Origin: Acidobacteriota bacterium
GTDB lineage: Bacteria; Acidobacteriota; Terriglobia; Terriglobales; Acidobacteriaceae
NCBI GenBank assembly: GCA_031296115.1
Contig: JARLGI010000019.1
Coordinates: forward strand, 62,001-126,000
Length of the DNA stretch: 64,000 nucleotides
Direction of reading: 5' to 3'
Every line of letters begins with the position of its first letter. Within the stretch, counting starts at the first letter, position 1. Both the position numbers and the translations under genes were made by a program. Below the pieces are notes generated by a model. It was not told where the DNA came from. It saw only the letters and a list, made by a program, of their open reading frames with translations, and made no database searches. This document shows positions 12,195 through 41,684 of the stretch, piece after piece.

Positions 12195-12303
12195 CGCCCG
12201 TCATAGCTTGAACTACCCCTAAGCTGGTTGAATGGTATGTTTGTCGTTCGGAAGATCGACGCTGTCTGATCGACGGCGCGGCCTTCACTGCCGGAGGCGG
12301 GCG

Positions 12304-12846
12304 ATGCACGATGCAGTCCTGAAACTTTGGCCCGAGATCGAATGGATCCAATCGCCTGCGCTGCGCCAGCAGGTCACGAAGACCTGGCAGCGGGCGCTGG
12401 AGTTGAGCCCGCTCACGCCCGACGACCTCAACCGCATTCCGTTCACGCTGCTGGTGCCCAACTGCCCGACGACCTTCATGGAGCACAAGCGCTGCGTGGT
12501 GCACATCGCGCGCAAGGCCGCCGAAAGTATGACCGAGTTCATGGGCCGCGCTCTGCCCATAGACATGGACACCGTCATCGCGGGCGCCATCCTGGCCGAC
12601 GTGGGCAAGCTGCTGGAATACGAGAACGTGGACGGCAAGACTCGCCAGAGCAAGCGCGGCGAATTGCTGCGCCATCCCTTCACCGGAGTGGCGCTGGCCA
12701 TAGAGTGCGGTGTGCCCGACGCTGTCTGTCACATCATTGCGGCGCACGCTGCCGAAGGTGACCTGGTGAAACGCACCACCGAGGCCTACATCGTGCACCA
12801 CGCCGATTTTATGGCGTACCTGCCGTTCAAGAACCTGGGGAAGTAG
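12304..12846 (+). CDS. HD-domain-like protein with altered HD motif
   Basis: 180 residues when started at ATG 12304; an upstream ATG at 12232 adds an arginine-rich, unlikely N-terminus. The layout is that of HD-superfamily metal phosphohydrolases: a first histidine in MEHKRCVVHIA, then the motif expected to read HD(V/I)GK, then RHPFTG, CHIIAAHAAEGD and VHHADF. The central motif is ILADVGKLLEY, so the metal-binding histidine of the HD doublet is alanine while the aspartate is kept. It may have changed metal use or be non-catalytic. No operon partner is obvious; the next gene starts 226 nt downstream. Confidence 0.6.
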   Translation: MHDAVLKLWPEIEWIQSPALRQQVTKTWQRALELSPLTPDDLNRIPFTLLVPNCPTTFMEHKRCVVHIARKAAESMTEFMGRALPIDMDTVIAGAILADVGKLLEYENVDGKTRQSKRGELLRHPFTGVALAIECGVPDAVCHIIAAHAAEGDLVKRTTEAYIVHHADFMAYLPFKNLGK

Positions 12847-12992: not shown

Positions 12993-13072
12993 GTAAGTCG
13001 ATAAATTGAACCAGAGTCCCGTGGGGGCGGCACAGATTTCTACCGTTGAGGAACCTCAGGAGGAATTCGTCT

Positions 13073-14485
13073 TTGTCAACAACAACCGCGCCAGCCCAGA
13101 CGAGAGCGGGAACCAAACCAACCATCACAGCAACCATGTCGCAATGGGCCGCGGGCGTGAGGTTTGACCACATCCCTCCAGACGCCATCTACCAGGCCAA
13201 GCGCTTCCTGCTCGACAGCATCGGTTGTGCACTGGGTGGGTACCAGCAGCACGACGTAGTGATTGCGCTGGAAGTGCTGAACGAGATTGCCGGCGCAGGC
13301 AAGGCCACCGTCATCGGCAGCGGCGCGCAGATGGACGCGGTCTCGGCCTCGCTCGCGAACGCGCTGATGATCCGCTGCATGGATTACAACGACATCTACT
13401 GGAAGCAGGACCCGTCGCATCCGTCCGACATTTTCCCGGCCGCCATCGCCTGCTGCGAGCGCGCCGGAAGCGACGGCCGCGAACTGATCGTGGGCCTGGT
13501 GCTCGGCCACGAGTTCGAAATGCGGCTATGCGAGGCTGCTTTCCCCGGTATCCGGGAGCGCGGCTGGCATCACGCCACGCTGACAGCGTTCGTGTCCCCC
13601 ATTGTGGCAGGCCGCATGTTGCACTTTGCGGGGGAGCAGATTCAGCACGCCATCGGAATCAGCGCCAGCGCCCGCTGCACCCTCGGGGCAGTGACGGCCG
13701 GCAAGCTCACCATGATGAAGAACACCGTCGATCCGCTGGCGACCCAAAGCGGAGTACTTGCGGCGCTCATGGCTGAAAAAGGCTACACCGGCCCCGAGCA
13801 CGTGATCGACGGCAAGGAAGGCCTGACGCATTGCTTTGGGCCGGAATGGAAGCTGGACCTGCTTACCGACGGGCTGGGTGATTCCTGGCGTATCACACAA
13901 TGTGGGATGAAGGCCTTTCCCACGGAGGCGCTGACTCACACCCCAATCTCTGCTGTGCTTGCGCTGGTCAAGGACAACGACCTGCAGCCCCACCAGATCG
14001 CAAAGGTGCACATCCGCACCACGGCGCGCGGCGCTGATATTCTCAGCGATCCCAGCAAGTACGATCCGCGCACCAAGGAAACTGCCGACCATTCCCTGCC
14101 TTACGTCATCGCCGCCGCCATCGCCGAACGGCAGGTCACGCCGCTGCAATTCACGCCGGCGAAGATCATGGATCCTGTTATCCGCGAGCAGTTGCGCAAA
14201 GTGCAGGTGGTCGCCGATCCTGACATCGAGAAAGTCTTTCCCGCGCTGCAGCGGGTGATTGTCCGCATTCATACCGTCGATGGCCGCGAATTCAGCACGC
14301 AACTCGACTATCCTAAGGGCGACCCGCGCAACCCGCTGACGGACAAGGAAATCGAGGAGAAGTTCGAGGCTCTGGCCGAGCCGGTCATGTCGCGCGAGGC
14401 CCGCCGCCGCGCCATCGACGCCATCTGGAACCTGGAAAAGCAGGCCAGCGTGACCGAACTGATGCGGCTGTTTCGCGTGACGTAG
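13073..14485 (+). CDS. MmgE/PrpD-family dehydratase
   Basis: 470 residues. TTG 13073 is chosen because AGGAGGA (13059-13065) lies 7 nt before it; another TTG at 13046 lacks a ribosome site. The family includes 2-methylcitrate dehydratase (PrpD) and related enzymes that remove water from hydroxy-tricarboxylates. Visible family blocks are FLLDSIGCALGG, DYNDIYWKQDPSHPSDIFPA, VLGHEFEMRL, WHHATLTAF and CGMKAFPTEALTHTP. It heads a run of genes encoding tricarboxylate enzymes (aconitase-like, isocitrate-dehydrogenase-like, citrate-lyase-like), so its substrate is probably citrate, 2-methylcitrate or a related acid. The exact one cannot be read from sequence. Confidence 0.85.
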   Translation: MSTTTAPAQTRAGTKPTITATMSQWAAGVRFDHIPPDAIYQAKRFLLDSIGCALGGYQQHDVVIALEVLNEIAGAGKATVIGSGAQMDAVSASLANALMIRCMDYNDIYWKQDPSHPSDIFPAAIACCERAGSDGRELIVGLVLGHEFEMRLCEAAFPGIRERGWHHATLTAFVSPIVAGRMLHFAGEQIQHAIGISASARCTLGAVTAGKLTMMKNTVDPLATQSGVLAALMAEKGYTGPEHVIDGKEGLTHCFGPEWKLDLLTDGLGDSWRITQCGMKAFPTEALTHTPISAVLALVKDNDLQPHQIAKVHIRTTARGADILSDPSKYDPRTKETADHSLPYVIAAAIAERQVTPLQFTPAKIMDPVIREQLRKVQVVADPDIEKVFPALQRVIVRIHTVDGREFSTQLDYPKGDPRNPLTDKEIEEKFEALAEPVMSREARRRAIDAIWNLEKQASVTELMRLFRVT

Positions 14486-14674: not shown

Positions 14675-16708
14675 ATGCCACAGACCGTCGTTGAGAAAAT
14701 CGCCCAGGCCCACATGACCGAAGGGCCTGACCGCCCGCTGCGCGCCGGCGACTTCCTTTCCATCCGCCCCTTCCACGTGATGACGCACGACAACACCTCG
14801 GCGGTGATGAAGAAGTTCAAAGCCATCGGCGCCAGCAAGGTCTTCGATCCCGCGCAGCCGGTAATCACCGCCGACCACGACATCCAAAACAGGGAGGAGT
14901 CGAACCTGGCGAAGTATCGCAGCATGGAGGCCTTCGCGCGCGCGCAAGGCATCGACTTTTACCCGCCCGGTACCGGCATCGGCCACCAGATCATGGTGGA
15001 ACAGGGCTACGTGCAGCCCGGCACCTTCGTCGTCGCCTCCGATTCGCACTCCAACATGTACGGCGCGCTGGGCGCGATCGGCACGCCAGTGGTGCGCACC
15101 GACGCGGCCGCCATCTGGGCGACCGGCGAATTCTGGTGGCAAATTCCGCGCACCGTGCAGGTCGTCCTCGAAGGCCGGCTTGCTCCCGGCACGACGGGCA
15201 AGGACGTCATCATCACGCTCTGCGGGCTGTACAACGACGAAGTACTGAACGCCGCCGTGGAATTCACCGGCTCTGGCGGGGCTTCGCTCACCATGGATGC
15301 CCGTCTCAGCATCGCCAATATGTCAACCGAGTGGGGCGCGCTGGTCGGCTGGTTCCCGGTCGATGAAATTACACTGGCGTACCTCGAAGCCCGTGATTGC
15401 GAACTGCGTGTGCAACGCATCACGCGAATCCCCGACGAGAAACTTCAGGAGTGGCGTACAAATCCGACAGCTCCCGACCAGGACGCGGTGTATGCCGGTC
15501 GCATCGTCCTGAATCTCGCGGAGGTCACGCCTCACGTCTCCGGCCCGGATACGGTGCAGGTAATGCAATCGATCGCCGAGATCGCGAAGAAGAAGGTCGC
15601 AATCCAGAAAGCATACCTGGTCTCCTGCGTGAATTCGCGGCTGGAAGACCTGGAAGCCGCGGCGAAAGTCCTGCGGGGCAAGAAAGTCGCCTCGGGCGTG
15701 ACGTTCTATCTCGCCGCGGCCAGCCGCGCGGTGCAGGAGGCGGCTGAGAAGCGCGGTGTCTGGCAAGCCTTGCTGGACGCCGGCGCGCAGCCGCTGCCAT
15801 CGGGCTGTGGGCCGTGCATCGGCCTGGGCGCCGGGCTGCTGGAGGCCGGCGAAGTCGGCATCTCGGCCACCAACCGCAATTTCAAGGGACGCATGGGCTC
15901 GCGCGACGCGCAGTGCTATCTCGGCAGCCCCATGGTGGTCGCGGCGTCGGCGGTCGCGGGCTACATCTGCGGGCCTGCTGAACGGCTTGCTGAAACAGGT
16001 GATGTTCCGGTAGAACGGCGCTTTAGCGCCGCGTCCAAGCCGTCCGCTTATCTTGTCCAGAGCGGGCTTCAGCCCGCGAAACATTTCGAATTGTTTGCGG
16101 CGACGTCTGCCCCAGCGGAGAAGGTTGCCATCCTGCCAGGCTTTCCGCAAAAGGTGACAGGCCGCCTCATCTTTCTGCCGCAGGACAATCTGAACACCGA
16201 CGGCATCTTCGGCAAGGACTACACTTACCGCGAAGACATGACGCCGGAGATGATGGCGCACGTGGTCATGGAGAATTACGATCCCCAGTTTGCTGCGAAC
16301 ACCCACGCAGGCGATGTCGTAGTCGGCGGCTTCAACTTCGGCACTGGTTCCAGCCGCGAGCAAGCGGTGACCGCGCTGAAATACAAAGGCATTCCTCTGG
16401 TCATCGCGGGCAGCTTCTCGCAGACGTATTTGCGCAACGCATTTAACAATGGCTTCCTGTGCATCGAGACGCCGGAGCTAGTGAACCGTCTGCGCGCGCG
16501 GTTCGCCCAAGCGGTCGCGCGCAAGGAGAAAACCATCATTCCGGGCGACGACATCGAGGTTGACTTTGCCGCTAGCACCATTCGCTATGCAGGCGAGGCG
16601 TTCACCTTTCCAGCACTGGGTACCGTGCCGCAATCGCTGGTGATTGCAGGTGGCGTGGAGAACTTAGTGAGCGTGAAATTGGGACTCATAGGAGTCAGGG
16701 CAACATGA
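14675..16708 (+). CDS. Homoaconitase-like hydro-lyase (aconitase superfamily)
   Basis: 677 residues combining the large iron-sulfur part and the swivelling domain in one chain, as in fungal homoaconitase and aconitase A. The three [4Fe-4S] ligands are Cys318 (LVSCVNSRLED), Cys378 and Cys381 (SGCGPCIGLG). Substrate-binding blocks include ASDSHSNMYGALGAIGTPV, NRNFKGRMGSRDAQCYLGSP and NFGTGSSREQAVTALK. The NRNFKGRMGS and GFNFGTGSSREQA blocks resemble Lys4-type homoaconitases more than housekeeping aconitases, so the substrate could be citrate, homocitrate or methylcitrate. Residues about 446-472, in the linker between the two parts, are encoded by two family A palindromes. ATG 14675 has AAAGGAAG upstream. 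The end overlaps the next gene by 4 nt. Confidence 0.88.
   Translation: MPQTVVEKIAQAHMTEGPDRPLRAGDFLSIRPFHVMTHDNTSAVMKKFKAIGASKVFDPAQPVITADHDIQNREESNLAKYRSMEAFARAQGIDFYPPGTGIGHQIMVEQGYVQPGTFVVASDSHSNMYGALGAIGTPVVRTDAAAIWATGEFWWQIPRTVQVVLEGRLAPGTTGKDVIITLCGLYNDEVLNAAVEFTGSGGASLTMDARLSIANMSTEWGALVGWFPVDEITLAYLEARDCELRVQRITRIPDEKLQEWRTNPTAPDQDAVYAGRIVLNLAEVTPHVSGPDTVQVMQSIAEIAKKKVAIQKAYLVSCVNSRLEDLEAAAKVLRGKKVASGVTFYLAAASRAVQEAAEKRGVWQALLDAGAQPLPSGCGPCIGLGAGLLEAGEVGISATNRNFKGRMGSRDAQCYLGSPMVVAASAVAGYICGPAERLAETGDVPVERRFSAASKPSAYLVQSGLQPAKHFELFAATSAPAEKVAILPGFPQKVTGRLIFLPQDNLNTDGIFGKDYTYREDMTPEMMAHVVMENYDPQFAANTHAGDVVVGGFNFGTGSSREQAVTALKYKGIPLVIAGSFSQTYLRNAFNNGFLCIETPELVNRLRARFAQAVARKEKTIIPGDDIEVDFAASTIRYAGEAFTFPALGTVPQSLVIAGGVENLVSVKLGLIGVRAT
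16010..16087 (+). repeat. Family A palindromes inserted in frame inside a coding sequence
   Basis: CGGCGCTTTAGCGCCG (16016-16031) and GCGGGCTTCAGCCCGC (16062-16077) lie inside the homoaconitase-like gene and match the copies in the spacer at 14511-14663. They are translated as part of the inter-domain linker (VERRFSAASKPS onward), and the frame stays open through to the conserved swivel domain. Confidence 0.85.
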
Positions 16709-17692
16709 ATAAACAACTTGGCACTCTGAGAAAGCTTGACCCTAGACAGTTTAGGACTGACGGGGCACGTGACCTCGCCCCTTGGCTCGCGATGACTACC
16801 AATTTATCTCTGCTTGGTGATGAAATTGGATTGCCTGGTCTGGAGATTGTCGGTCCAGAGCATCCAGTCGGAGATTTTAGGGCGGACATCGTCGCCCGCG
16901 CTACCGGTTCAAACGACCTGGTAATAATCGAAAACCAACTTGAGAGAACCGATCATGATCACCTTGGCAAACTGCTCACATGCGCATCGGGTTTAAATGC
17001 CAAGTATGTTGTTTGGCTGTCTCCGGAAATAAGAGACGAACATCGCCGTGCGCTCGATTGGCTAAATGAGGTGACCTTACCTTCAATCGCATTTTTCGGA
17101 GTCAAGTTGGAACTGCTTCAGATTGATGGTTCGTTCCCCGCGCCGCTCTTCACCCTTGATTGCAAGCCGAACACATGGGCGAAACGAGTAAAAGCCAGCA
17201 TCGAAGAAGGAGAGGTTACAGAGCTTGAACTGCGACAATTTGAGTTCTGGTCGGGATTTGTGGATTTCTGCAGATCGCAAAACAGCTTTTTGAAGTTACC
17301 CAAACCACAGTATCGATATTGGTATGACATAGCAGTGGGGAACGCCTCTTACTGCATTTCACTAACGGCAATTACTACTAAGGAAAAGATTTTTTGTGCA
17401 ATCTACATCGATGCGGGAAGCCAAGCCGGGTCGAAGGCTGGATTCGATTCTCTACTGGCTGAACGTGCCGCAATCGAATCCACACTCGGGCCGTTGGACT
17501 GGCAACGGCTCGATGACAAGCGAGCTTGTCGTATCGTCCAATCCCGAACGGGCAACATCGGACTTACAAATAGTTGGCCGGGGCTATTTGCCCTGGCTAA
17601 AGGAGAGAGCGGGATCCTTTCATCGCGTCTTCTCTCCCCTTATTCGAAAGATAGAACTCCCGGAACCGGCCCTGGACAACGACACACAGTAG
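16705..17692 (+). pseudogene. DUF4268 / PD-(D/E)XK nuclease-like gene with a frameshift
   Basis: The N-terminal half has GDFRADIVA followed by VIIENQLERTDHDHLGKLL, the pattern of the PD-(D/E)XK-like family fused to DUF4268. The second half (from about residue 180) fits DUF4268. Near 17591 an extra C (GCCCTGG for an expected GCCTGG) shifts the frame. The in-register continuation (LPWLKERAGSFHRVF) runs in the next frame and stops at 17692, 10 nt before the dehydrogenase; the shifted frame runs on to 17724. The start overlaps the upstream stop by ATGA. Base use is more AT-rich than its neighbours, suggesting transfer. A defence-type nuclease within a metabolic operon is odd. A sequencing error would restore the gene. 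Confidence 0.7.
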
Positions 17693-17702
17693 GGGACTTT
17701 TC

Positions 17703-18914
17703 ATGCCAAAACATACCGTCGTAACCATGCCGGGAGACGGCATCGGCAATCAGGTCCTGCCCGAGGCGATCCACGTTCTCGACGCCGTCGGCTTTGAAGC
17801 CAACTACGTGCACGCCGACATCGGCTGGGAGTGCTGGATCAAAGAAGGCAATGCGCTGCCCGAACGCACCATCGAGCTGCTGCGCCAGCACAAGGTCGGC
17901 CTCTTCGGGGCGATCACCTCGAAGCCCAAGAAGGAAGCGGAGGCGGAACTCAGCCCGGCGCTCAAGGGCAAAGGCCACCAGTACTTCAGCCCCATCGTGT
18001 CGATGCGGCAGATCTTCAACCTCGACGTCTGCATTCGGCCATGCCTGTCGTTCCCCGGCAATCCGCTGAACTTCATCCGCAAGAAGCCCAGCGGCGGTTT
18101 CGAAGAGCCGGGGGTGGATGCTGTCATCTTCCGCCAGAACACTGAAGGACTCTACGCCGGCGTCGAATGGACGAACCCGCCCGAGACGGTGCGCCAGGCG
18201 CTCAGCCTGCATCCCAAGTTCAAACCATTCGGCAAGGTTAGGGGCGAAGACCTCGCGATATCGGTGCGAATCATCACGCGTCCAGCGGCCCAGAGCATCT
18301 GCGAAGCCGCTTTCCAGCATGCCCGCAAGTTTGGCTACAAGTCGGTCACCATCTGCGAGAAGCCCAACGTGCTGCGCGAGACTTCAGGCATGATGGAGGA
18401 GGTCGCCAAAGAAGTGCAGAAGCGCTACAGCGACATTCCGCTCTGGTCCACCAACATTGACGCGCAAACCATGTGGCTCACGAAGAATCCCGAAGACTAC
18501 GGCGTGATTGTGGCGAGCAACTTGTTTGGTGACGTCATCAGCGACGCGTTTGCCGGACTGGTTGGCGGGCTGGGGTTTGCCGCTTCGGGTAACATCGGGC
18601 AGGAAGTCGCGGTCTTTGAACCGACGCACGGTTCGGCGCCCAAGTATGCCGAACTCAATCCGCCGATCGTCAACCCGATCGCGATGATCCTGTCGGCGGC
18701 CATGATGCTCGACTACATCGGCGAAACCGAGAAGTCGCTGAAAGTACGCGACGCCATTGCGGCGGTCGTGGCTGAGGGCAGGGTGCGCACCTATGACATG
18801 CTGCGCATCTCCGGCGGAGCGAAGTCACTGGCGCAGGGAGCAGCTTCGACCACGCAGATGACCGATGCCATCCTGGCGAAGCTGGGGGTTCGGGTGGAGG
18901 CCGCGGCCGGGTAG
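17703..18914 (+). CDS. Isocitrate/isopropylmalate-type NAD(P) decarboxylating dehydrogenase
   Basis: 403 residues of the beta-hydroxyacid oxidative decarboxylase family. Visible blocks are MPGDGIGNQVLPEA, VIFRQNTEGLYAGVEW, the catalytic lysine near residue 220 in ICEKPNVLRETSG, the metal aspartates in NLFGDVISDAFAGLVGG, and EPTHGSAPKYA. The last block is closer to isocitrate than isopropylmalate dehydrogenases. The substrate loop reads FSPIVSMRQIFNLD; where E. coli isocitrate dehydrogenase has Ser113-Leu-Asn115 this has Ser-Pro-Ile, so specificity may differ. Neighbours suggest it decarboxylates the product of the aconitase-like enzyme. The ATG is just after the broken nuclease gene. Confidence 0.85.
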   Translation: MPKHTVVTMPGDGIGNQVLPEAIHVLDAVGFEANYVHADIGWECWIKEGNALPERTIELLRQHKVGLFGAITSKPKKEAEAELSPALKGKGHQYFSPIVSMRQIFNLDVCIRPCLSFPGNPLNFIRKKPSGGFEEPGVDAVIFRQNTEGLYAGVEWTNPPETVRQALSLHPKFKPFGKVRGEDLAISVRIITRPAAQSICEAAFQHARKFGYKSVTICEKPNVLRETSGMMEEVAKEVQKRYSDIPLWSTNIDAQTMWLTKNPEDYGVIVASNLFGDVISDAFAGLVGGLGFAASGNIGQEVAVFEPTHGSAPKYAELNPPIVNPIAMILSAAMMLDYIGETEKSLKVRDAIAAVVAEGRVRTYDMLRISGGAKSLAQGAASTTQMTDAILAKLGVRVEAAAG

Positions 18915-18936: not shown

Positions 18937-19140
18937 GCCGGGCTTTAGCCCGGCGACTCAGAGACGAAATCGACCGGGGCTTCAGCTCCAGCTGCAAGAT
19001 CCAGGGCTGGAAGCCCCTGGATGAGCAGGCGAAGCATTCACCGGGCTAAAGCCCGGTGCTTCCACCGGAAAAACGGCCATGGTAGAGCTGGCCTTCAGGC
19101 CAGCTTCCAGCCAGCATAATGAAGCAGGGGCTTTAGCCCC
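18937..19140. repeat. Cluster of family A palindromes
   Basis: The spacer contains GCCGGGCTTTAGCCCGGC, a CCGGGCTAAAGCCCGG copy, GCTGGCCTTCAGGCCAGC and GGGGCTTTAGCCCC. It holds no gene. The last palindrome abuts the ribosome site of the CitDE gene. Confidence 0.8.
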
Positions 19141-19152
19141 GGAGGTTTTGCT

Positions 19153-20385
19153 TTGACGGTTGCGGCAGCACCAACCAGATTACGACGTGCCGAGGCTGGC
19201 CGCGCAGGCGCCGACGTGCGCTCCGACCTGCATGTCACGTTCGAAGAACGCTCCAGCGGCGGTGTTGAGATCAACCTGCAATCCCGTGTCGCGCTCTACT
19301 ACGGCGACGCCATCCGGCAGCACGTCCGCACTGTTCTTCTAGCGCTAGGCATCCAACACGCCGCTGTCGAGATCGTGGACGAAGGCGCGTTGCCCTTCGT
19401 GATCGCCGCGCGTATCGAAGCGGCGGTTCGGCGTGCGGGACTGGCACAAGGGAAGTCTGCGCTGCCCCAAGCGCTGCCGTTGCCTGCTCCGTCGGCGCGT
19501 GATCGCCTGCGCCGCTCGCGGCTCTACCTGCCGGGCAATGAGCCCAAATACTTCATCAATGCCGGGCTGCACACGCCCGATGCGATCATTCTGGATCTCG
19601 AAGACTCCGTCCATCATGCCGAGAAAGACGCCGCCCGCCTGCTGGTACGCAACGCCCTGCGGGGCGTGGATTTCGGTGCAGCCGAACGCATGGTGCGCAT
19701 CAACCAGTTGCCGCTCGGCCTGCAGGACCTGGAAGAAATCATTCCCCAGTCGCCCGACCTCATCCTCATTCCGAAGGTCGAGGCCGCCGAACAGATCAAG
19801 CAGGTGGACGCGGCCGTCGCCTCGATCGCCAAGAAGTCCGGCGTCACCCGCCCCATCTGGCTGATGCCAATCTTGGAGTCCGCGCTCGGCATCGAGAACA
19901 CCTTCGCGATCGCGATGGCCTCCGAGCGCATTGCAGGAATCACGATCGGTCTGGAGGACTACACTGCCGACCTCGGCGTGGTGAAGACGCCGGGTGGCAG
20001 TGAGTCTCTCTTCGCTCGCGCGCGGGTGGTGAATGCCGCCCACGCAGCGCACGTGCAGTCCATCGATTCGGTGTACGGCGACGTCGCCGATTCTGACGGC
20101 CTGCTGCGCTGGGGCGAGGCCTCGCGCGCCATGGGCTTCGAGGGCATGGGATGTCTCCATCCCGCGCAGATCGAAATCATCCACCGCGCATTCGCACCGT
20201 CGTCGCTCGAACTAGAGAAGGCTCTGACGATTGTTGCCGCCTACGAAGATGCGCAGGCACGAGGGCTGGGCGTGGTAAGCCTCGGCTCCAAGATGATTGA
20301 CGCGCCGGTGGTACAGCGCGCCTTGAAGCTAGTGGCGCGGGCGAAGCAAATGGGGCTGGTCACCGACCCGCTTGAAGCAGGCTAG
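19153..20385 (+). CDS. Citrate lyase beta subunit (CitE) with N-terminal CitD-like domain
   Basis: 410 residues, TTG start preceded by GGAGG. Residues about 20-97 match the citrate lyase acyl-carrier (gamma, CitD) subunit: ADVRSDLHVTF, EINLQSRVALYYGDAIR and DEGALPFVIAARIEAAVRRA. Residues about 120-400 are CitE: RSRLYLPGNEP, ILDLEDSVHHAEKDAARLLV, MVRINQLP, GLEDYTADLG, GCLHPAQI and GLGVVSLGSKMIDAPVV. CitE cleaves the citryl thioester to oxaloacetate and an acetyl thioester. In E. coli CitD the prosthetic group is on Ser14 (LESGDV); the aligned segment here is RAGADV with Gly19/Ala20 and no serine before Ser24. The fused carrier is therefore probably not modified, and free CoA may be used. Confidence 0.9.
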   Translation: MTVAAAPTRLRRAEAGRAGADVRSDLHVTFEERSSGGVEINLQSRVALYYGDAIRQHVRTVLLALGIQHAAVEIVDEGALPFVIAARIEAAVRRAGLAQGKSALPQALPLPAPSARDRLRRSRLYLPGNEPKYFINAGLHTPDAIILDLEDSVHHAEKDAARLLVRNALRGVDFGAAERMVRINQLPLGLQDLEEIIPQSPDLILIPKVEAAEQIKQVDAAVASIAKKSGVTRPIWLMPILESALGIENTFAIAMASERIAGITIGLEDYTADLGVVKTPGGSESLFARARVVNAAHAAHVQSIDSVYGDVADSDGLLRWGEASRAMGFEGMGCLHPAQIEIIHRAFAPSSLELEKALTIVAAYEDAQARGLGVVSLGSKMIDAPVVQRALKLVARAKQMGLVTDPLEAG

Positions 20386-20571: not shown

Positions 20572-22182
20572 ATGAGTACATCAACTATGGCAACCGACCT
20601 CGTCACCAATGCCGTCGGCCGCCGCGTGCCGACCACCGTCAACGGCCAGGAGCAGACGCCTTACATTGGTGTCGACGGCCATCGTCCCTCGGGCAACAAG
20701 GCCGGGCCGCCCATCCGCAGTAACGCCGACTACCCCGCCAATGGCGATAAGCGCGTACCCGATCTGGAAACCGCCTTGCGCTTGTGCGGGCTGCGCGATG
20801 GCATGACGATCAGCAGCCATCATCATCTGCGCAACGGAGATCGCGTCGCGCTCACCGCGCTACAGACCGCCGCGCGCATGGGCGCGAAAGACCTGGTCTG
20901 GTTTCCCAGCGCGTCGTTCCCTTGCCATGAGCCGGTCATCGACCTGATGAAGTCCGGTGCCGTCCATCACATTGAAGGCAGCATGAACGGCCCGCTCGGC
21001 GACTACTGCTCGCACGGTCACATGCGCGGACTGGGCGTGCTGCGCTCGCATGGCGGACGCTGGCAGGCGGTGCAGGATGGCGAAGTGCGCATCGACATCG
21101 TAGTCATCGCCGCTCCGACCGCCGACTTTTTCGGTAACGCCGACGGTTCGCACGGCAAGTCGGCCTGCGGCTCGCTGGGCTTCGCCCTCGCCGACTCGGT
21201 TTATGCCGGCCGCGTCATCGTGGTCACCGACAACCTCGTTCCCTTCCCCTGCGTGCCGTGGCAAATTCAGGGCAACAACGTGGACTTCATCGTAGAAGTC
21301 GATTCCATCGGCGATCCGGAGAAGATCGTCAGCGGCACAACCCAGATCACGCGCAGCCCCGATCGCCTGCGGATTTCACATCTGGTGGCTCGCTTCCTGC
21401 GCGATAGCGGCATCATGCGTGACGGATTCTCCTTCCAGGCTGGCGCCGGCGGCATTGCGCTGGCTTTCGTGGATTACCTCGCACGCATGATGAAGGAAGC
21501 CAACGTGAAAGCCAGCTTCGTGCGCGGCGGCTCCACCAAGTACCTGGTCGACCTGCTGAACGAGGGCCTCATCGGCTACATTCTCGACGGCCAGACCTTC
21601 GACCTCGATGCGGTGCATTCCATCGCCAGCGATCCCCGTCACGTGGCGACCAGTCCGTTCACTTCGTATAATTTCCACGGCAAGGGGAATTTCGCTTCCA
21701 TCGTGGACTCCGCTGTCCTAGGCGCGACCGAAGTGGACGTGAATTTCAACGCCAACGTCGTCACTCACTCCGACGGCCGCCTGCTGCACGGCATTGGCGG
21801 CTGGCAGAACTGCCTGTTCGCGGGGTGCACCATTCTCGCGGTGCCTTCGTTCCGCGACCGCATCCCGGTCATCGTCGACGAAGTCACCACCATCACCGGC
21901 CCGGGCGAATTGGTTGACGTCATCGCCACCGAGCGCGGCATCGCCATCAATCCCAAGCGGCAAGACCTGCTCGACGCGGTCAAAGGCAAGGGCCTGCCGA
22001 TCCGCACCATCCAGGAGATCAAGGCGGAAGTCGAGAAAATCTGCGGCGGTACGCCAGCCAAGCCGCGGCTGCTCGATCGCCCTGTCGCCGTGGTGAAGTG
22101 GGTGGACGGAACGGTGCTCGACACCGTCTGGCAGGTGGTGGACGACAATCCCTACGCCCCGAAGGTCAGCGGAGGCGAGTGA
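20572..22182 (+). CDS. citF: Citrate lyase alpha subunit (citrate CoA/ACP-transferase)
   Basis: 536 residues matching CitF through almost the whole length: GLRDGMTISSHHHLRNGD, EGSMNGPLGDY, LRSHGGRWQAVQDGE, DFFGNADGSHGKSACGSLG, GGIALAFVDYL, VRGGSTKYLVDLLNEGLI, DGRLLHGIGGWQN and VDEVTTITGPGELVDV. CitF moves the acyl carrier from acetyl to citrate, forming the citryl thioester that CitE cleaves. It lies 186 nt after the CitD-CitE fusion. No citC, citG or citX gene is seen in the window, which fits a system that does not use the phosphoribosyl-dephospho-CoA prosthetic group. An alternative substrate such as citramalate or methylcitrate is possible. Confidence 0.9.
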   Translation: MSTSTMATDLVTNAVGRRVPTTVNGQEQTPYIGVDGHRPSGNKAGPPIRSNADYPANGDKRVPDLETALRLCGLRDGMTISSHHHLRNGDRVALTALQTAARMGAKDLVWFPSASFPCHEPVIDLMKSGAVHHIEGSMNGPLGDYCSHGHMRGLGVLRSHGGRWQAVQDGEVRIDIVVIAAPTADFFGNADGSHGKSACGSLGFALADSVYAGRVIVVTDNLVPFPCVPWQIQGNNVDFIVEVDSIGDPEKIVSGTTQITRSPDRLRISHLVARFLRDSGIMRDGFSFQAGAGGIALAFVDYLARMMKEANVKASFVRGGSTKYLVDLLNEGLIGYILDGQTFDLDAVHSIASDPRHVATSPFTSYNFHGKGNFASIVDSAVLGATEVDVNFNANVVTHSDGRLLHGIGGWQNCLFAGCTILAVPSFRDRIPVIVDEVTTITGPGELVDVIATERGIAINPKRQDLLDAVKGKGLPIRTIQEIKAEVEKICGGTPAKPRLLDRPVAVVKWVDGTVLDTVWQVVDDNPYAPKVSGGE

Positions 22183-41512: not shown

Positions 41513-41684
41513 GCTGTTTTGAAACGGCACGGCTTTAGCCGTGCCATCAGGAACTGCTGGAGACTTGGGCTTTAGCCCCTGAGGAAATGCGAATGAGAAA
41601 AGCGAATTCCCTCAGCGGCTAAAGCCGTCCGAAAAAATCAAGCTTGCGGCACGGCTGAAGCCGTCCCCTTTCAAAACAGGCAAT
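41513..41684. repeat. Long inverted composite of family A palindromes
   Basis: CTGTTTTGAAACGGCACGGC starts the unit and GCACGGCTGAAGCCGTCCCC then TTTCAAAACAG closes it, so the outer ends are inverted copies. Inside are GGGCTTTAGCCCCTGAGG and CCTCAGCGGCTAAAGCCG. The whole could fold into a cruciform of about 170 nt between DUF1385 and prfA. Confidence 0.75.

Follow-up and report, generated by a model that had tools for sequence, protein, structure and literature searches.

A citrate-lyase-type CitD–CitE fusion with arginine in place of the prosthetic-group serine, probably working with free coenzyme A

The window (the whole stretch of DNA analysed here, 64,000 nucleotides of a soil acidobacterium) carries a gene in which a CitD-like carrier domain is fused to a CitE-like lyase domain. 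The features of the locus are listed in Table 1. The gene order HD-domain protein, MmgE/PrpD-family protein, aconitase-type enzyme, isocitrate-dehydrogenase-type enzyme, CitDE and CitF is conserved across phyla, as judged from 80 homologous loci. CitF is found in 68 of these loci, and many of the missing operon genes fall at contig ends. The aconitase-type enzyme scores 740.6 bits against the homoaconitase model TIGR00139 (cut-off 529.9), and its true substrate is uncertain. The dehydrogenase-type enzyme stays below the cut-off of every specific model. A DUF4268 (PF14088) gene lies at 16705–17724 between the aconitase and dehydrogenase genes. It was detected by tblastn in none of the 80 homologous loci, which suggests that it entered the operon recently.

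Table 1. Features of the citDE locus in the window
Feature	Position	Strand	Details and basis
HD-domain protein (HDIG)	12232–12846	+	TIGR00277, 32.1 bits (cut-off 27.6); in 51/80 loci
MmgE/PrpD-family protein, start codon uncertain	13046–14485	+	PF03972/PF19305; in 51/80 loci
Aconitase/homoaconitase-type enzyme, single chain with both the large and the small domain	14675–16708	+	TIGR00139; in 68/80 loci
Isocitrate/homoisocitrate dehydrogenase-type enzyme	17703–18914	+	PF00180, E = 8.2e-77; in 69/80 loci
CitDE fusion ORF	19153–20385	+	410 residues; TTG start; GGAGG at 19141–19145
CitD-like carrier domain, residues 1–116	19153–19500	+	PF06857, TIGR01608, AlphaFold2 model, MdcC fold match
Arg23-Ser24-Asp25, with Arg in the prosthetic-group serine column	19219–19227	+	Alignments
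CitE-like lyase domain, residues 117–410	19501–20385	+	PF03328; conservation in 107 distinct fused proteins
CitF-like transferase (alpha subunit), separate deep CitF clade	20572–22182	+	PF04223, TIGR01584, tree

A preliminary description of this DNA had proposed an N-terminal CitD-like domain fused to CitE. The fusion is genuine: PF06857 (residues 18–95, E = 2.6e-19) and PF03328 (E = 2.6e-52) are matched within one reading frame, and citF follows. The carrier domain passes the citD model TIGR01608 with 65.2 bits (cut-off 63.5), and the lyase half does not reach the CitE equivalog TIGR01588 (266.9 bits, cut-off 443.4). The whole fusion was modelled by AlphaFold2 with a pLDDT of 94.1 and a pTM of 0.91. 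Only lyases were listed as matches in the fold search with this full model. Therefore, the carrier domain was modelled alone (pLDDT 93.2, pTM 0.82), and the model was compared with the chains ranked highest by Foldseek. The best of the 50 entries listed was the malonate decarboxylase carrier MdcC (5vit_C), with a Z score of 10.7 and an r.m.s. difference of 2.1 Å for 82 residues, and the next entry listed had a Z score of 8.9.

The preliminary description had also set RAGADV of the fused domain against LESGDV of Escherichia coli CitD, and had stated that the site of Ser14 lacks a serine. The attachment column indeed contains no serine. The register, however, misplaces a gap; it is shifted by four residues and pairs Ser14 with a glycine. 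The alignment made here took in six stand-alone Acidobacteriota CitDs, which read AGTMQSSDL, AGSFESSDI and similar at the attachment site, together with E. coli CitD. Anchored on the next conserved aspartate, S14-G15-D16 of E. coli CitD corresponds to R23-S24-D25 of the fused domain, and the equivalent of Ser14 is Arg23. When the profile of the fused domains was aligned with MdcC as deposited in the PDB, the match started at Asp27 of MdcC, opposite Asp25. Thus the modified serine of MdcC, Ser25 (PMC5534430), is opposite Arg23. The structural alignment spans residues 10–96 of the model and 15–97 of chain 5vit_C. This suggests that the loop before the aspartate is about three residues longer in the fused domain than in MdcC, and the equivalence within the loop therefore rests on the aspartate, which is invariant in both groups. 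As for the earlier statement that the first serine is at residue 24, Ser24 is present, adjoins Arg23 and occurs in most homologues, but not in all of them.

In a set of 111 distinct fused domains, arginine occupies position 23 in 110 cases and lysine in one; position 24 has 109 serines, one alanine and one glutamate, and position 25 is Asp without exception. Eight of the ten Planctomycetota fused members read R-G-D, and R-A-D was also found in a second species (G262) of the acidobacterial genus with alanine. All told, about 121 distinct fused domains were collected, with Arg or Lys at position 23 in all of them and Ser24 in about 110. Ser24 is replaced in 11 of about 120 homologues, by Gly in the eight planctomycete proteins, by Ala in the one acidobacterial genus and by Glu in one genome; the glutamate variant has a lysine at position 23 (KED), and the others read RAD and RGD. 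A serine in the attachment column was found in none of about 120 distinct fused homologues, against seven of seven canonical CitDs, and its absence is far beyond chance. The near-invariance of Arg23 and Asp25 favours a role at the old attachment site. In 47 diverse members of the carrier domain, the mean column identity is 47%, and D25, D76, G78, A79, A86 and R87 are invariant. Conserved positions occur outside the attachment loop as well. The eight R-G-D proteins (L195–L202) form a natural S24G series that is useful for experiments. In the G262 copy (L186, reverse strand, near 2574–2789), a stop codon in frame separates the CitD-like domain from the CitE-like one; either the assembly is wrong here or the gene is split.

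The prosthetic group of citrate lyase is made by CitG (PF01874) and attached by CitX (PF03802), and CitC is the ligase that re-acetylates the enzyme. These genes were sought by homology searches, which would miss an unrelated modifying system; E. coli and canonical genomes of the same phyla served as positive controls for the CitG and CitX profiles. Where the carrier is canonical (S-S-D or GSGD), CitG is present in eight of eight genomes and CitX in seven of eight, whereas neither gene was found in any of the 67 fused-type genomes. In Acidobacteriota, 43 genomes contain a PF06857 domain, seven with a canonical carrier (six stand-alone S-S-D CitDs and one malonate decarboxylase GSGD carrier) and 36 of the fused type, most of which were typed from sequence and a few (e.g. 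G333) by open-frame length. CitG is present in 7/7 of the former and 0/36 of the latter, and CitX in 6/7 and 0/36; the canonical genome lacking CitX is that with the malonate decarboxylase carrier. The window's own family contributed 18 genomes, of which 13 have the fusion, and no CitG or CitX was found above the cut-off in any of them. The same result was obtained for 11 fused-type genomes reached via their loci, mostly from other phyla (Planctomycetota, Gemmatimonadota, WOR-3, Riflebacteria and Calditrichota). In Planctomycetota, the PF06857 domain occurs in 11 of 391 genomes; the single genome with a stand-alone S-S-D carrier has both CitG and CitX, and the ten with the fusion have neither.

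The contrast for CitG (8/8 against 0/67) corresponds to 1 in C(75,8), or about 6e-11, if the genomes are treated as independent, and relatedness among them inflates this significance. The contrast recurs in two phyla, and also within one acidobacterial family (f14), in which G226 is canonical and G100, G130, G233, G241 and G262 are fused. Most of the genomes are draft assemblies, yet gaps can hardly account for an absence from every one of the 67. The E. coli CitC, CitG and CitX sequences, used as queries, found matches in all six canonical loci but in not one of 99 fused loci; the latter number excludes L174, a piece of 101 bases that does not belong to the fused loci. The CitC family PF08218 gave weak, short nucleotidyltransferase-like matches in the genomes of the relatives, which are probably CoaD; the match in the window's genome scores 15.9 bits. 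These results agree with the preliminary description in that the carrier could not be modified in the known way.

In the lyase half, D148, D151, R182, E242 and D383 are invariant in 107 full-length fused proteins, and E150 and D269 have one exception each. The metal-binding and catalytic roles of these residues were assigned by alignment to malyl-CoA lyase (PMC3832036). The residues expected of the PF03328 superfamily, namely the Mg-binding Glu and Asp, the catalytic Arg and the lid Asp, are all present (E242, D269, R182, D383 and E150/D151). In the same 107 proteins, Arg23 is found in 106, with one Lys, and Asp25 in all. These counts and those of the roughly 121 domains indicate an intact lyase, a retained arginine and a dispensable serine. 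The closest folds to the lyase half, among the matches listed, are free-CoA lyases, although this ranking is weak because no true CitE structure was available (PMC3832036). Characterised CitE-like enzymes other than CitE itself act on free CoA thioesters (PMC3832036). In the loop PGNEPK132, the last residue is Lys or Arg in 65 of 66 fused proteins, whereas seven of seven canonical CitEs have Gly or Ala. This basic residue was considered as proof of free-CoA binding, but it is only suggestive; it is not universal among free-CoA lyases, and Thr is found in 5ugr.

The product of the gene after citDE matches PF04223 with E = 1.5e-127 (426.9 bits), and it falls short of the CitF equivalog TIGR01584 (486.9 bits, cut-off 501.45). 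In the tree, the fused-type CitFs form one group apart from the canonical CitFs, with a support of 100/100 and a branch of 2.05 changes per column; long branches were noted by the program. The fused-type CitFs also show fixed differences in the active region, where H356-C357-D358 of E. coli CitF is replaced by W411-Q412-N413.

Since an arginine occupies the serine column and the cofactor genes are absent, the enzyme probably uses free coenzyme A. We propose a citrate-lyase-type enzyme that no longer depends on a covalent carrier and works with free acetyl-CoA and citryl-CoA, with a probability of roughly 0.7; free-CoA use and citrate as the substrate are both inferred. CitF would catalyse the CoA exchange, converting citrate, or a closely related tricarboxylate, and acetyl-CoA into citryl-CoA and acetate. 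The CitE half would then cleave citryl-CoA to oxaloacetate and acetyl-CoA, and the acetyl-CoA released would prime the next round. As the primer would be ordinary acetyl-CoA, CitG, CitX and CitC would be superfluous, and none of the three is present. What was once the carrier domain stays fused to the lyase under strong selection, and Arg23 would probably hold a phosphate of the bound CoA or dock the domain to CitF. The domain may thus hold CoA non-covalently. A precedent for the use of free CoA is found in the related MdcD–MdcE, which decarboxylates malonyl-CoA in place of the malonyl-carrier (PMC5534430). More tentatively, at a little short of even odds, the fused proteins may constitute a multi-phylum family of free-CoA citrate-lyase-type enzymes, in which the carrier has turned into a non-covalent CoA-binding module and the arginine has replaced the covalent anchor.

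The substrate may not be citrate, because the fused-type CitF clade carries its own residues in the active region. It is possible, though we consider it rather doubtful, that 2-methylcitrate, isocitrate or a homologue is cleaved in a pathway with the MmgE/PrpD, homoaconitase-type and homoisocitrate-dehydrogenase-type neighbours; this would be compatible with free-CoA use. In favour of such a substrate, the neighbouring genes score best on the homoaconitase and homoisocitrate dehydrogenase models, and the window's genome has two ordinary citrate synthases. However, the chemistry of citrate, aconitate and isocitrate explains all the neighbours too, and the failure of the dehydrogenase at the specific cut-offs counts against the other substrates. 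Given the two citrate synthases, the operon may belong to a reductive branch that cleaves citrate, or it may act on another tricarboxylate; a role of the enzyme as a substitute for citrate synthase was rejected for this genome. In two fused-type Acidobacteriota genomes (G076 and G099, 98% and 95% complete), no PF00285 citrate synthase was found, and there citrate may be made by the lyase in reverse or by a Re-citrate synthase.

It is unlikely that the carrier domain is purely structural, positioning the lyase or bridging CitE and CitF, with free CoA bound only on the TIM barrel and CitF. MdcC bridges the transferase and the decarboxylase in malonate decarboxylase (PMC5534430), and the retained carrier fold and the conserved positions outside the loop fit such a role. 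However, a structural domain has no obvious need for a fixed basic residue and an aspartate at the old loop in every homologue from several phyla.

A shift of the attachment site to Ser24, with a CoA-derived group attached by enzymes unrelated to CitG and CitX, was also considered, and we judge it improbable. Ser24 is common, as the counts above show, and with the longer loop it could occupy the place of Ser14 in space. Yet 11 homologues that retain Asp25 and Arg23 (Lys in one) have Gly, Ala or Glu in its place, with the lyase residues conserved throughout, which makes Ser24 an unlikely shifted attachment site. Ser24 was dropped as the main candidate once the RAD, KED and RGD variants appeared. 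The absence of CitG and CitX from the 67 genomes also argues against attachment at Ser24, and no candidate attaching enzyme was recognised within the conserved operon. Although the classical serine is gone, a decaying relic without function is scarcely credible for a domain so strongly conserved across phyla, the loop included.

The classical CitDEF enzyme with CitC, CitX and CitG (E. coli, Klebsiella) shares with the present system the homologous carrier fold, lyase and transferase, the adjacency of citDE and citF and the conserved lyase residues. It differs in that here CitD and CitE are fused, Arg stands for the modified Ser, CitC, CitG and CitX are lacking and CitF belongs to a separate deep clade. 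In its proposed working the fused system resembles citrate lyase, to which it is homologous, yet it lacks what defines the classical system, namely the modified serine, CitG/CitX and CitC. The fused carrier domain has the fold of MdcC from the biotin-independent malonate decarboxylase MdcACDE, but MdcC keeps Ser25 (G-S-G-D), is served by MdcB and MdcG and has other catalytic partners. The free-CoA CitE-like lyases (malyl-CoA lyase, CLYBL and (S)-citramalyl-CoA lyase) resemble the lyase half in sequence and fold, and free CoA thioesters are the proposed common substrates; those with solved structures among the matches span just the lyase half and have no carrier-like domain. Citryl-CoA synthetase and citryl-CoA lyase (Ccs/Ccl) of Hydrogenobacter cleave citrate via free citryl-CoA. 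This system uses ATP, has a lyase of the citrate synthase fold and is not known to be homologous to CitDE–CitF. In the open-access literature searched, neither fusions of this type nor a CoA-dependent citrate lyase were found described.

The dependence of citrate lyase on an unusual, covalently bound cofactor of its own is a textbook example. If the proposal is correct, a multi-phylum family with the carrier fold but with neither the anchor nor the three accessory genes shows how the carrier can be bypassed, and yields a simpler citrate-cleaving enzyme. It would also correct automated annotation, which assigns a holo-ACP citrate lyase to fused-type genomes. As no maturation genes would be needed, the fused enzyme could easily be expressed and tested.

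The palindrome GGCTTTAGCC forms intergenic clusters in the window, with 18 matches at one mismatch or fewer against 3.5 expected. The clusters lie at 18941–19138, 20473 and 41531–41662, and copies are present on both sides of the citDE gene.
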